Source: an uncultured Alphaproteobacteria bacterium (GTDB lineage: Bacteria > Pseudomonadota > Alphaproteobacteria > Micropepsales > Micropepsaceae). Taken from it: a stretch of DNA of 40,441 nucleotides. Location: contig CAIUCH010000017.1 of NCBI GenBank assembly GCA_903897605.1, positions 1 to 40,441 of the forward strand, given 5' to 3'. This document shows, in pieces, positions 16,645 to 21,284 of the stretch. The notes under the pieces were generated by a model. That model searched no databases. It saw only the letters and a program-made list of their open reading frames with translations, and was not told the DNA's origin. The position numbers and the translations under genes were made by a program. The number at the start of each line of letters is the position of its first letter. The stretch's first letter is position 1.

Positions 16645-17061
16645 TTAATCGTCCCGGTAGACTTTTTCGCGGCGCTCGTGGCGTTCCTGGGCTTCGATGG
16701 ACAAGGTGGCGATGGGCCGCGCATCCAGGCGCTTGAGGGATATGGGTTCGCCGGTCTCTTCGCAGAAACCGTACGAGCCGTCTTCGATCCGGCGCAGCGC
16801 CGCGTCGATCTTGGCGATCAGCTTGCGCTGGCGGTCGCGGGTGCGCAGTTCCAGCTGCCGCTCGGCCTCGGTGGAGGCCCGGTCGGCGAGGTCGGCATGG
16901 GGAATGGTCTCGGCCTGGAGATTCTGGATGGTCTCGCGACTCTCCTTGAGGATCTCCTCTTTCCAGCTGTTCAGCTTGCGGCGGAAATACTCCCGCTGCT
17001 TCTCATTCATGAAGGGTTCATTTTCCTGCGGCCGGTAGTCGGCCGGGATCTGGATTCCCAT
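16645..17061 (-). CDS. dksA: DksA-family RNA polymerase-binding transcription factor
   Basis: DksA binds the RNA polymerase secondary channel and works with ppGpp. The 138 residues have the coiled-coil tip region, the conserved DRASTEAERQLELRTRDR segment, and the C-terminal zinc-finger region. Only one of the four expected zinc cysteines is present (YGFCEETGEPI, then ARPIATLSIEAQ), so the finger is degraded, as in several alphaproteobacterial DksA proteins. The ATG at 17061 is preferred because GGGAG lies five bases upstream; a GTG two codons earlier is possible. A perfect hairpin AAGACGCG/CGCGTCTT (17079-17099) lies just upstream in the leader. Confidence 0.93.
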   Translation of the reverse strand: MGIQIPADYRPQENEPFMNEKQREYFRRKLNSWKEEILKESRETIQNLQAETIPHADLADRASTEAERQLELRTRDRQRKLIAKIDAALRRIEDGSYGFCEETGEPISLKRLDARPIATLSIEAQERHERREKVYRDD

Positions 17062-17273
17062 GCGCACTCCCTAAACCAAAGACGCGGCTTTCGCGTCTTG
17101 TGGGCCGGGGTTATAGCCGCCGGTCCCAGGGCCAGCAATCGTTATCGCGAGTGGCCCGGAGTGATGCACATCTAAAGCAAATGTTTCAATATTCTGTATA
17201 TTTTCAATGGCTTATATGAAGGCGCGGTTTTGGGCGGCCGGGCCTTCAAACCTCCCGGCAACGGCCCCAGGTC

Positions 17274-17639
17274 CTATCGCGGTATCAGGACCGTCAGTGA
17301 GTCGGGGCCGAAGCGGTTGGCGCCGACCGTCCCGCGCGAGCAAAACCAGACCAGCAACAGGATCGGCCCGGCCAGCGGAACCAGCCCGATCCAGTACCAC
17401 CAGCCGGAGCGGTCGGTGTCATGCAGCCGGCGAACCAGGACCGAAAGCGTTGGCAGGAAATTGCCGATTGCAAATAGCGAAAAAGCCGCTTGCCCGATGC
17501 CAAACGGCCAAAGCACCAGGCAGACCAGGATGCCCAAGCACTGATAGAGGGCGAAGAACCAATATTCGGAGCGCGAAGCTCTTTCGGAAAATGTCGCATA
17601 ATTGGAATAACAAGACCGGATGGCTTGACCGAATGTCAC
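17274..17639 (-). CDS. DUF805 membrane protein
   Basis: A 121-residue inner-membrane protein of the DUF805 family, with three or four hydrophobic segments and the family blocks FGQAIRSCYSNYATFSERAS, RSEYWFF, VRRLHDTDRSGWW and PLAGPILLLVWFC. The start is the GTG at 17639: it overlaps the SQR stop as GTGA, is preceded by AAGGA, and begins VTFGQAIRSC, matching family N-termini. The overlap implies it is made together with the sulfide:quinone oxidoreductase. Its function is unknown. The 212-bp gap before dksA (17062-17273) holds the dksA leader hairpin and an AT-rich stretch near 17180-17215, and no gene. Confidence 0.85.
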   Translation of the reverse strand: MTFGQAIRSCYSNYATFSERASRSEYWFFALYQCLGILVCLVLWPFGIGQAAFSLFAIGNFLPTLSVLVRRLHDTDRSGWWYWIGLVPLAGPILLLVWFCSRGTVGANRFGPDSLTVLIPR

Positions 17640-18883
17640 GCCGCCGGTTCCTTGAACGCCGTATTGTGCTTGGGGAACCATTCATAGCCCTTGAGCATGT
17701 AATTCCAATACAGCATTGGCAGGAAGCTGGTCTTGATCCACCAGCTCAGCCAGCGCTGCTTGCCGGGATCCAGCACCGGCAAGGTCGGCGTGACTTTGCC
17801 GCCATAGATGAATTCAGCGATTATGGCTTTGCCATGGGCGGTGGTCAGCGGACACGAAGCGTAACCGTCATAACCGCTCTCGACCGCATCGCCGCGCATC
17901 AGCCTCAAAATATTCCGCACCACCACGGGCGACTGCTTGCGCACGGCGGCGGCGGTTTTGGAATTGGGCGTGCTGGCGACATCGCCCAGCGAGAATATGT
18001 TGGCGTAGCGCACATGCTGCATGGAATTCTGATTGACCTCGACCCAGCCGGCGGCATTGGCGAGTGGACTTGATTTGATCTCTTCCGGCGGCGATTGCGG
18101 CGGGGAAACATGCAGCATGTCATAGGGCACACTGATGCGCTGGCCCTGTTTGTCGCCGCCGGCAATCTCGAAGATCGCGGCCTTGGCCTTGGCATCGATC
18201 GCCACAAGATTGTGCTGATAGAATATCCGCACGCCGCGATCCTCGGCGATCTTGGCCAGATGGCGCGCGAAAAAGGGCACGCCAAAGATCACCGGCGCAT
18301 GGACATAGTAGGCGACATCGACCTTGTCGCGGATGCCGCGCCGCCGCAGATTGTCGATGGTCAGATAAACGATCTTCTGCGGCGCGCCGGGGCATTTGAA
18401 CGGCAGCGGCGGCTGGGTGAATACGGTCTTGTCACCAGGCTTGAGCGCCTTGATGCAGTCCCATGTGTAGGTGACGTGCTCGGACGAATAGTTGCTGCAC
18501 ACGCCGTCATGGCCAAGCGCTTCGGCCAGGCCATCAACTTTCGCCCAGTCCAGTTTCAGGCCGGTGCAGACCACAAGATAATCGTAGGTGAGCTTGTCGC
18601 CGGTTGAGAGTTCGACCGTATTGTTGCTCGGGTCGAATTTGCTCGCCTTTGCCTTGATGCGCGCAACGCCCGGCGGCACCAGGCTGTCGGTGGACCGGTG
18701 TGTCCGCGCCAAATCATAGACGCCGGCGCCGACCAAGGTGAAGGCGGGTTGATAATAATGCGTGTCGTTGGGCTCGATGATCGCGATGTCGGCGGTTCCG
18801 CGCCGCTTCAAGCTTGCCGCGACGGTGATCCCCGCCGCGCCCCCGCCCACGATCAAGATTTTGTGATGTGCCGCCCCTGCCAT
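17636..18883 (-). CDS. sqr: Sulfide:quinone oxidoreductase-like flavoprotein
   Basis: This 415-residue FAD enzyme is expected to oxidise sulfide at the membrane surface, pass electrons to quinone and release polysulfide or persulfide. The FAD-binding ILIVGGGAAGITVAASLKRR is at the N-terminus. Three cysteines sit in the contexts expected of SQR: C129 (DGVCSNYSS), C164 (FKCPGAPQK) and C344 (YASCPLTTAHGK). The C-terminal part is aromatic and basic (WWIKTSFLPMLYWNYMLKG), as in membrane-bound SQR. It belongs with the persulfide-dioxygenase-like gene and SqrR-type repressor at 19172-20416. Related NADH dehydrogenases lack the CPGAPQ and CPL cysteines, which is why I favour SQR. Confidence 0.88.
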   Translation of the reverse strand: MAGAAHHKILIVGGGAAGITVAASLKRRGTADIAIIEPNDTHYYQPAFTLVGAGVYDLARTHRSTDSLVPPGVARIKAKASKFDPSNNTVELSTGDKLTYDYLVVCTGLKLDWAKVDGLAEALGHDGVCSNYSSEHVTYTWDCIKALKPGDKTVFTQPPLPFKCPGAPQKIVYLTIDNLRRRGIRDKVDVAYYVHAPVIFGVPFFARHLAKIAEDRGVRIFYQHNLVAIDAKAKAAIFEIAGGDKQGQRISVPYDMLHVSPPQSPPEEIKSSPLANAAGWVEVNQNSMQHVRYANIFSLGDVASTPNSKTAAAVRKQSPVVVRNILRLMRGDAVESGYDGYASCPLTTAHGKAIIAEFIYGGKVTPTLPVLDPGKQRWLSWWIKTSFLPMLYWNYMLKGYEWFPKHNTAFKEPAA

Positions 18884-19171
18884 GATTGCGCCCCTGTTTT
18901 GAAAACCGGACTGAACTCATCGGCTAACCGGGCGTGACACTAGTGAAGTTACCGGCGAAGGGAAGGTGGGTCACGCTTCTGGGGATTTTGGCGGGGATTT
19001 TTCGGCTCCTGGCCTGAAGCATGTCACCAGTTCTAGTCTTCGCGCCGGCTGCTCACAAGAGTTTGATAATGCTCATTATTTTGGCGAGACGTCATTTGGG
19101 AAATCGATATCTTGTCCGCCCCCGACAGTTTTGGGTGTCGGCGCACGGCAGGCGAGATCAAAAGCCCGTCC
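18884..19171. other. 288-bp non-coding gap between sqr and the MBL gene
   Basis: No gene is seen. The gap must carry the sqr promoter if sqr is not read from the MBL gene. Two inverted repeats are visible: GCGTGAC (18932-18938) with GTCACGC (18970-18976), and the compact palindrome ATAATG-CT-CATTAT (19076-19089), which is AT-rich and operator-like. The latter differs in sequence from the TTAGAA/TTCTAA palindrome in front of the repressor, so whether the same regulator binds both is open. Confidence 0.5.
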
Positions 19172-20032
19172 CTAAAGTTTGTTGATTGGCAGCTTCAGAT
19201 AGACTTGGCCGTTGTCATCCTTGGGCGGCATATGGCCGGCTCGGATATTCACCTGCACCGCGGGCAGGATGAGAGCCGGCATCGCTAGGGTCTTGTCGCG
19301 CGCTTCGCGGGCCGCCACGAATTGCGCTTCACCGACGCCGTCATGGACATGAATGTTCTTGGCGCACTGATCGGCGACGGTCGTGCGCCAGGCGTAACTT
19401 CTCCGGCCTGGCGCCTTATAGTCGTGGCACATCCATAATGTGGTTTGGGGCGGCAGGGACAGGATGCGTTTGATGGAGCGGTACAGCGTAGGGGCGTCCC
19501 CACCCGGAAAGTCTGTCCGAGCGGTGCCGTAATCGGGCATGAACAAGGTATCGCCGACAAAGACATTGTCAGCGACCTTGTAGCTCACACAAGCGGGAGT
19601 ATGACCGGGGGTGTGCAGCACTTCGACCGTCAAGCCGCCGACCGCAAGGACGTCGCCGTCTTTCAGCAAATGGTCAAATGGCGCGCCGTCTCCAGCGACA
19701 TCCCTGGCGTTGAATATGGGTGCGAACACTTTTTGCACTTGGGCAATATGTTCCCCGATGGCGATTTTCGCGCCGGTGACATCCTTGAGATAGGCCGCCG
19801 CCGATAGATGGTCCGCATGGGCATGGGTTTCCAGAATCCATTCCACCCGCAGGCGCCGAGCTGCGGCAGCATCAAGCACGGCATCGGCCGATCGGGTCGA
19901 GGTCCGGGCGGATTTGGGATCATAGTCCAGCACCGGATCGATAATGACCGCCTGATGGCTTTGCGGGTCGCTCACCAGATACGTCACGGTGAATGTCTGC
20001 TCGTCGAAAAAGACTTGTATGTCGGGGGCCAT
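19172..20032 (-). CDS. MBL-fold persulfide dioxygenase-like enzyme
   Basis: A 286-residue metallo-beta-lactamase-fold enzyme resembling the ETHE1/Blh group, which oxidises glutathione persulfide to sulfite. Motifs are ETHAHADHLSA (H-x-H-x-D-H), VLHTPGHTPACVSY, VGDTLFMPDYGTARTDFPGG and WMCHDYK, supplying the usual single-iron ligands. The start ATG at 20032 follows GGAGAAAGCGC; a longer reading to 20146 would run through the promoter of the divergent repressor gene and is rejected. There is no rhodanese domain. It is divergent from the SqrR/BigR-type repressor, the arrangement seen in bigR-blh operons, and sqr lies downstream on the same strand. Confidence 0.87.
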   Translation of the reverse strand: MAPDIQVFFDEQTFTVTYLVSDPQSHQAVIIDPVLDYDPKSARTSTRSADAVLDAAAARRLRVEWILETHAHADHLSAAAYLKDVTGAKIAIGEHIAQVQKVFAPIFNARDVAGDGAPFDHLLKDGDVLAVGGLTVEVLHTPGHTPACVSYKVADNVFVGDTLFMPDYGTARTDFPGGDAPTLYRSIKRILSLPPQTTLWMCHDYKAPGRRSYAWRTTVADQCAKNIHVHDGVGEAQFVAAREARDKTLAMPALILPAVQVNIRAGHMPPKDDNGQVYLKLPINKL

Positions 20033-20052
20033 GCGCTTTCTCCAGCGTCCAG

Positions 20053-20080
20053 TTGACATTATATTAGAAGATTCTAAATT
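20053..20080 (+). promoter_or_regulatory. Sigma-70 promoter with embedded palindromic operator
   Basis: TTGACA (20053-20058) and TAAATT (20075-20080) are separated by 16 bases and would start transcription near 20087, just upstream of the GAAGGAA ribosome binding site of the repressor gene. Inside the spacer and -10 element lies the palindrome TTAGAA-GA-TTCTAA (20064-20077). An ArsR-type dimer bound here would block RNA polymerase, giving autorepression and probably control of the divergent MBL gene, whose start is only 69 bases away. Confidence 0.7.
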
Positions 20081-20101
20081 AGCAATACTGGAAGGAATTA
20101 T

Positions 20102-20416
20102 ATGGACGCCGCCACTCCCAAGAACCTCAAGGCGATGCGCAAGCATGCCGGCAACGCCGCCGCCCTAATGCGGGCGCTTTCCCATGAGGCGCGGCTGAGA
20201 GTGTTGTGCGATCTGGTGGGCGGTGAACGCACGGCTGGTGACTTGGTGCAACGCTCGGGCTTGAGCCAGTCGGCATTGTCCCAACATTTGTCCAAGCTGC
20301 GCGAGGAGGGGTTGGTGGCGACCCGCCGCGAGGCCCAATCCATCTACTATCGCATTGCCGATTCCGGCGCGGCCCGCGTTCTGGCCGTCTTGTATGAGAT
20401 TTATTGCAAAAGATAG
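20102..20416 (+). CDS. ArsR-family persulfide-responsive repressor (SqrR/BigR type)
   Basis: A 104-residue winged-helix repressor. The family core is LSHEARLRVLCDLV, then the recognition helix LSQSALSQHLSKLREEGLV and the wing RREAQSIYYRI. It has exactly two cysteines, C36 in the VLCDLV helix and C102 in the last helix (YEIYCKR). In SqrR and BigR a pair of cysteines at these two places forms a tetrasulfide bridge with persulfides; in Rhodobacter SqrR they are C41 and C107, with the same spacing of 66 residues. Arsenic-type metal-binding cysteines (C-x-C) are absent. Start ATG follows GAAGGAA. It should repress the divergent MBL gene and sqr until sulfide appears. Confidence 0.88.
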   Translation: MDAATPKNLKAMRKHAGNAAALMRALSHEARLRVLCDLVGGERTAGDLVQRSGLSQSALSQHLSKLREEGLVATRREAQSIYYRIADSGAARVLAVLYEIYCKR

Positions 20417-20456: not shown

Positions 20457-20556
20457 CTGTAGCGGAGACAGGATTTGAACCTGTGACCTTCAGGTTATGA
20501 GCCTGACGAGGTGAGACGGCCCGGCCAGGGCCGCCGAACGGGCTGCTCCGCAACCC
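20457..20556 (-). pseudogene. Decayed second copy of the initiator tRNA gene
   Basis: Bases 20467-20510 are identical over 44 bases to 20730-20773 of the intact initiator tRNA gene, covering the anticodon arm, variable loop and T arm with the CAT anticodon. The D-arm region is broken by about 28 bases (20511-20538) that form a GC hairpin, after which CGGGCTGCTCC matches the 5' part of the tRNA again. The 3' end reads TACA instead of ACCA. It probably does not make a functional tRNA. It may be a decayed tandem duplicate or the scar of an integrated element. Confidence 0.7.

Positions 20557-20719: not shown

Positions 20720-20720
<1 letters not shown>
20681..20720 (-). terminator. Rho-independent terminator of the initiator tRNA
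   Basis: A perfect 11-bp inverted repeat AATAAAAAAGG (20681-20691) and CCTTTTTTATT (20710-20720) encloses GGCCC/GGGCC. Read on the minus strand, a GC stem is followed by TTTTTTATT immediately after the tRNA CCA end. A second GC hairpin (GCCCCA/TGGGGC near 20659-20680) lies directly downstream. Confidence 0.88.
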
Positions 20721-20796
<76 letters not shown>

Positions 20797-20972: not shown

Positions 20973-21284
20973 ATGAGAAGCCTAATCGTAGCCTTGCTGA
21001 CCCTCGTTCCAGCCGCCGCTTTCGCGGATGGCGCGCGCACCGTCATCCAGCAGGGCCGCACCTTTCGTCCGGGCGAAATCACCATCAACCGCGGCGAAGC
21101 GGTGACCTTCACCAACAATGACGATTTCATCCACCAAATCTACGTCAACGGCGAAGGCTTCACGTTCGATACGGACGAGCGTGCGCCGGGGCAGAACGTT
21201 ACCGAAAACTTTACCCAGCCCGGCACCTTCGAGGTTCGCTGCCACATCCACCCCAAGATGAAGCTGGTGGTGCACGTTAAATAG
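20973..21284 (+). CDS. Small cupredoxin (plastocyanin/azurin-like)
   Basis: A 103-residue exported blue-copper-type protein. The signal peptide is RSLIVALLTLVPAAAFA. The cupredoxin fold region runs from TFRPGEITINRGEAVTFTNN to the C-terminus. Type 1 copper ligands are in order: H54 (DDFIHQIY), C90, H93 and M96 (RCHIHPKM). It would carry electrons in the periplasm; no redox partner is adjacent. Start ATG lacks a strong Shine-Dalgarno sequence. The 176-bp region between the tRNA gene and this start holds no other gene. Confidence 0.88.
   Translation: MRSLIVALLTLVPAAAFADGARTVIQQGRTFRPGEITINRGEAVTFTNNDDFIHQIYVNGEGFTFDTDERAPGQNVTENFTQPGTFEVRCHIHPKMKLVVHVK

Follow-up and report, generated by a model that had tools for sequence, protein, structure and literature searches.

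The window analysed here is a stretch of 40,441 nucleotides (contig C17 of the 60 contigs in a 2.79 Mb genome, G000) from an uncultured alphaproteobacterium of the family Micropepsaceae. Between its dksA gene and a gene for tRNA-Met lie three genes on the minus strand, for a DUF805 membrane protein, a sulfide:quinone oxidoreductase (SQR) and a persulfide-dioxygenase-like (PDO) protein, and one on the plus strand for a repressor of the ArsR family. An earlier note on this DNA had read these four genes as a compact module for defence against sulfide and persulfides; the gene positions that it gave were all confirmed by open reading frames and Pfam matches. Genomes are denoted below by G numbers and fetched stretches by L numbers. 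The features of the locus are as follows.

16645-17067, minus strand: dksA open reading frame, the boundary of the module on one side
17274-17639, minus strand: DUF805 membrane protein, 121 residues, GTG start at 17639, overlapping the sqr stop (17636-17639)
17636-18883, minus strand: sqr, putative SQR of the human-SQOR-like (type II) kind, 415 residues, ATG at 18883
19172-20032, minus strand: pdo, PDO-like protein of the metallo-beta-lactamase (MBL) fold, 286 residues, ATG at 20032
20061-20080, no strand assigned: proposed operator (core ATTAG-N6-CTAAA, 20063-20078); promoter-like sites on both strands overlap it
20102-20416, plus strand: arsR, putative SqrR/BigR/HlyU-type repressor, 104 residues, with C36 and C102, ATG at 20102
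20459-20510, minus strand: partial tRNA-Met copy, 52 nucleotides at 96%, equivalent to the 3' two-thirds of tRNA-Met and lying where relatives have rhodanese and tauE genes
20720-20796, minus strand: tRNA-Met, which with dksA delimits the stretch containing the module

The arsR and pdo genes are separated by 69 nucleotides and pdo and sqr by 288.

The arsR product matches Pfam HTH_5 and its only cysteines are C36 and C102. Both the sequence and its alignment bear out the proposal that these two residues, 66 apart, have the spacing of C41 and C107 of SqrR. When aligned to chains in the PDB they fall opposite cysteines of HlyU, of BigR and of a chain that is presumably SqrR. A phmmer comparison with solved structures placed HlyU entries and one 'transcriptional activator' at the top (86.1 to 80.0 bits), followed by BigR (78.7 bits), two entries labelled only as ArsR family (13ct and 6o8l, 76.4 and 76.3 bits), which we take to be SqrR of Rhodobacter capsulatus, YgaV (74.7 bits) and NolR (70.5 bits). 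Among the 19 repressors encoded divergently from pdo in the bacterium's family, the window's included, 18 have both cysteines; the spacing is 66 residues in 16 of the 19 and 67 or 68 in two. These comparisons support the assignment of the predicted repressor to the SqrR/BigR/HlyU type.

The gap between arsR and pdo contains a putative operator. The pattern ATTAG-N6-CTAAW was found in all 19 arsR//pdo gaps of the family when one mismatch was allowed, and exactly in 17 of them, while 200 rounds of dinucleotide shuffling gave at most one gap with an exact match and at most three with one mismatch or fewer; since the pattern was derived from these very gaps, the shuffles guard against chance but do not test it independently. 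When the window site was left out of the weight matrix it scored 34.2 bits, the next non-overlapping site in the window reaching 10.9 bits. At 20061-20080 the site covers both predicted divergent promoters, one promoter-like site on each strand, and it would be an inverted repeat lying over the repressor's own promoter, as is expected of an SqrR- or BigR-type repressor. Elsewhere in the same genome (L151:2162-2197, equivalent to G000 C13:68161-68196) two adjoining sites resembling ATTAG-N6-CTAAT stand just before another gene resembling the ArsR family (L151:1825-2154), the product of which has no cysteines.

The divergent arrangement of a PDO-like MBL gene and an ArsR-family repressor gene is evident from open reading frames, Pfam and NCBIfam alike. 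The MBL protein matches Pfam Lactamase_B, carries the HxHxDH motif in the form HAHADH, and scores 362.9 bits against PDB entry 4ysk, which is named in the database as a beta-lactamase domain protein but which we take to be a PDO, and 81.9 bits against human ETHE1. This places it closest to proteins of the PDO type and suggests that it is a persulfide dioxygenase of the ETHE1/PDO kind. The SQR matches Pfam Pyr_redox_2 and aligns over nearly its full length with human SQOR (363.9 bits), which is presumably of type II. Scores against FCSD and other SQR entries did not exceed 75.3 bits; AIFM2 reached 46.2 bits, an 'NADH oxidase' entry 36.7 bits and the NADH-dehydrogenase-like entries at most 28.5 bits, so that by score the flavoprotein is not placed with NADH dehydrogenases. 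The match to the NCBIfam model for type III selenoprotein SQR (225.9 bits) did not reach the cut-off of 525. Five cysteines are present (C106, C129, C143, C164 and C344), of which C129, C143, C164 and C344 have counterparts in the six SQRs compared. Of the three typical cysteines that had been claimed, two could be checked against human SQOR, C164 and C344 aligning with cysteines of that protein; C129 aligns with a glycine there. With human SQOR as its best match and these two cysteines kept, the protein is probably a type II SQR.

The usual setting of such genes in the family gives further context. A PDO gene was found in 30 of the 96 family genomes, at 32 places, and a divergent arsR at 19 of the 30 family PDO loci that were fetched. 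In all 18 of the other pairs arsR is followed by a gene for a TauE-type sulfite exporter, and in 15 of the 18 by one for a YgaP-like rhodanese; neither gene lies behind arsR in the window, and two TauE-family genes are present on other contigs of its genome. Since both genes are so regularly found elsewhere, the module of the window would be a truncated bigR-type operon to which an sqr has been added. It is indeed compact, but this is due to the absence of the rhodanese and TauE genes, which, as far as the comparison tells, have been lost. In the relative G033, arsR-rhodanese-tauE runs in one direction and pdo-sqr-DUF805 in the other. Its stretch between tRNA-Met and arsR (L009:1861-4541) also contains, besides tauE and the rhodanese gene, a DUF308 membrane gene and a gene of 160 residues without a Pfam match.

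A role for the cluster in sulfide metabolism is very likely, and we would put the probability that it detoxifies sulfide and persulfides in the manner of bigR / sqr-pdo modules at roughly 0.85. The sensing chemistry, the enzyme activities and the repression we infer from homologous proteins. In the absence of sulfane sulfur, an ArsR dimer would occupy the ATTAG-N6-CTAA site over both -10 regions and repress arsR and pdo. Persulfides or polysulfides would then bridge C36 and C102, causing the repressor to be released and PDO to be made and, if transcription crosses the 288-nucleotide gap, SQR and the DUF805 protein also. SQR would pass electrons from sulfide to the quinone pool and yield persulfide, which PDO would oxidise to sulfite.

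Such a scheme has parallels in published systems. BigR has two cysteines, C42 and C108, and recognises the -10 region of its operon (PMC5823870). The bigR operon of Agrobacterium and Xylella (BigR, Blh and a TauE-related exporter) has in common with the window an ArsR protein with cysteines 66 residues apart, an enzyme of the ETHE1/PDO type and a repressor positioned over the -10 region, as is predicted here (PMC5823870). It has a TauE-related exporter, and relatives of the window carry TauE beside arsR, whereas the window does not; the window PDO, unlike Blh, has no N-terminal sulfurtransferase part, and sqr and DUF805 are additional. SqrR of R. capsulatus has the cysteine pair C41 and C107 (PMC9774590), a deduced site of ATTC-N8-GAAT (PMC9774250) and sqr among its targets (PMC9995734). 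The spacing of the cysteines and the 16-bp geometry of the site are the same here, although the putative operator faces arsR and pdo rather than sqr and has the half-site ATTAG instead of ATTC. In the pdo-sqr-tauE operon of Acinetobacter baumannii, regulated by FisR, and the cst operon of Staphylococcus aureus, regulated by CstR, pdo and sqr are likewise under a persulfide sensor (PMC7315123, PMC9995734), but these regulators belong to families other than that of the window repressor.

A number of observations weigh against the detoxification reading. The best specific NCBIfam model for the repressor, BigR, was matched with 92.8 bits and its equivalog cut-off of 155 was missed, and for this reason the protein is classed as BigR/SqrR-like and not as BigR proper. 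Blh, the best NCBIfam model for the MBL protein, was matched with 378.6 bits against a cut-off of 625; only positions 141-423 of its 423 were covered, from which the absence of the N-terminal sulfurtransferase part follows. One homologue of the repressor in the family, L070, is without the second cysteine. The operator pattern was not found in three gammaproteobacterial arsR//pdo gaps (L014, L015 and L018, with 4, 4 and 2 mismatches respectively), and a pattern search of the whole genome for a wider regulon gave 70 matches against 311 for the reversed control and was set aside as uninterpretable. Upstream of sqr the weight matrix found no operator, either in the window or in L009, L010 and L011, and control of sqr by the repressor therefore rests on read-through from pdo.

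The origin of this sqr adds a further point of the same kind. The gene was sampled in 96 genomes of the family (the bacterium's order comprises the same 96), 385 of the class and 398 of the phylum. At a threshold of E 1e-60 it was present in 5 of the 96 family genomes, four of them close (81% identity, window included) and one distant (45%). In the sampled class it was found in 51 of the 385 genomes. The survey yielded 74 rows, of which five are wider repeats (L154-L158 repeat L072-L076), leaving 69 places, among which the same organism may recur under two names. As the flank available was about 1.5 kb or shorter for 48 of these, and some of the wider stretches end at contig ends, the counts of neighbours are lower bounds: a close PDO lies beside sqr in 47 of the 69, an ArsR gene in 14, and all three together in 13, in two of which (L017 and L022) the ArsR protein does not have the SqrR-type cysteine pair. 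Outside the window's clade, the sqr genes closest to it (62-71% identity) stand in eight fetched stretches, none of which has DUF805, a close pdo or arsR, so it is not obvious that the window's sqr was acquired as one member of an old set of three. Of these eight, L012 encodes a distantly related protein of the MBL fold (32% identity), and the sqr of L159 is broken and lies close to a contig end.

It is conceivable, and we would tentatively allow for it, that the regulated unit consists of the sensor and PDO, with SQR-DUF805 a neighbour that has its own promoter and lies outside the control of this repressor. The 288-nucleotide gap without an operator would fit such an arrangement, as would the presence of sqr-DUF805 without arsR-pdo at the same site in G073 and the lack of an sqr, within the stretches fetched, near 17 of the 19 arsR//pdo pairs of the family. 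Against this, pdo and sqr lie on the same strand, the gap contains nothing resembling a terminator on that strand, and their order is kept in G000, in G033 and, up to the contig end, in G036. In L013, moreover, an exact operator-like site stands shortly upstream of an sqr of 69% identity, which makes control of sqr genes of that kind by this kind of repressor plausible, although this is one of 69 sqr upstream stretches scanned and was obtained without a shuffle control. A small cytochrome-c gene precedes sqr in that stretch (L013:705-1113), with the operator-like site between the two.

The history of the site can be followed in the genus, where dksA was found in 64 of 69 genomes. Twenty dksA loci were fetched (G032 and 19 genomes without an sqr locus), some of the stretches ending at contig ends. 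None of the 20 contained arsR, pdo or sqr of this kind, and one, G032, contained DUF805 alone; tRNA-Met was present in 17, and the length from tRNA-Met to dksA varies across the genus. The site is occupied by arsR//pdo-sqr-DUF805 in G000 and G033, by pdo-sqr-DUF805 up to the contig end in G036 and by sqr-DUF805 only in G073. In a tree of FlgF, FlgG, FlgA, FlgH and DksA, from which G082 was left out because only 200 residues were covered, G032 groups with G033, G073 and G036 with a support of 83, which is not strong. As this puts G032 inside the clade that bears sqr, loss of sqr from G032 with retention of DUF805 is weakly favoured, the other order, with DUF805 first and sqr later, being possible. 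On the detoxification reading, the family-wide operon arsR-rhodanese-tauE//pdo and an sqr would have joined between tRNA-Met and dksA, and the rhodanese gene and tauE would then have been lost from the window's lineage.

The partial tRNA-Met copy at 20459-20510 matches 20722-20773, 211 nucleotides away, and both are reported as tRNA-Met by ARAGORN; the partial copy resembles a scar left by integration or deletion. The idea that the module is an element between two tRNA copies was rejected on two grounds: the partial copy is situated between tRNA-Met and arsR, and a 22-nucleotide piece of it was found only in those two copies when the window was searched with up to three mismatches. Adjoining tRNA-Met is a gene for a small cupredoxin (plastocyanin/azurin family, 20973-21284), which lies beside a HAMP/PAS histidine kinase gene in many of the 20 genus dksA stretches, sometimes in two copies.

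The earlier note had also drawn a link between DUF805 and sulfide oxidation from the fusion of the SQR stop with the DUF805 start (GTGA). The fusion itself is as described, with GTG at 17639; the protein matches Pfam DUF805 with 91.9 bits, and its longest open reading frame starts upstream at 17681, inside sqr. As a general statement the link was not supported. DUF805 lies beside sqr in 4 of the 69 places, all of them one inherited locus in one species cluster, and in none of the 65 outside the clade within the stretches fetched, while G032 has DUF805 at the same site without sqr. Linkage of the two genes does not recur across lineages, and on the survey and the G032 locus a general link was rejected. 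It is unlikely, though it merits consideration at least for this clade, that the DUF805 protein is a functional partner of SQR, providing a membrane anchor, quinone access or sulfur export. In favour of such a role, the four-base overlap is kept in all four clade members, the SQRs of which are about 81% identical to the window protein (GTGA in two, ATGA in two), and the DUF805 frame is intact in all five genomes that have the gene at this site; yet G032 keeps it without sqr, and DUF805 occurs in 64 of the 96 family genomes compared with 5 of 96 for sqr. In the sampled class it occurs in at least 128 of the 385 genomes. Most likely the DUF805 gene is a passenger at this locus, at the level of the clade. 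Because the overlap is conserved, coupling of sqr and DUF805 within the clade is possible; the proposal that the DUF805 protein has here come to serve a stand-alone type II SQR as an accessory or subunit, with coupled translation, is improbable. A structure model of the protein is weak (mean pLDDT 68.4, from seven sequences). No paper in the collection searched named both DUF805 and sulfide, and eight came up for DUF805; among these, a table of correlations in PMC3597751 mentions DUF805 but does not name sulfide, and the main text of PMC9427106 does not name DUF805.

That the repressor is a sensor of metals or peroxide is very improbable: its score of 86.5 bits exceeds the cut-off of 55 set for NCBIfam's broad 'metalloregulator ArsR/SmtB' subfamily, and oxidants can also yield disulfides in related repressors (PMC10451225, PMC5823870), but the structures below NolR in the phmmer comparison, solved metal sensors among them, score far lower, so that by score it is not placed with the metal sensors (Rv0081 at most, with 45.4 bits; Rv1994c, CmtR-type, 42.1; SmtB 39.1; NmtR 37.6; CzrA 25.4), its cysteines are the SqrR-type pair only, there is no histidine in the C-terminal 25 residues, and its gene stands beside pdo at 19 of the 30 family PDO loci fetched.

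The locus suggests that sulfide defence is regulated in this alphaproteobacterial family, which has been little studied, and provides a clean putative operator for an SqrR-like sensor, recurring within one mismatch in every family gap compared. Coupling to SQR at the level of the clade, if true, would be a first functional handle on the widespread membrane family DUF805. As it stands, the DUF805 link looks like local history, and it serves as a warning against reading function from a single start/stop overlap.

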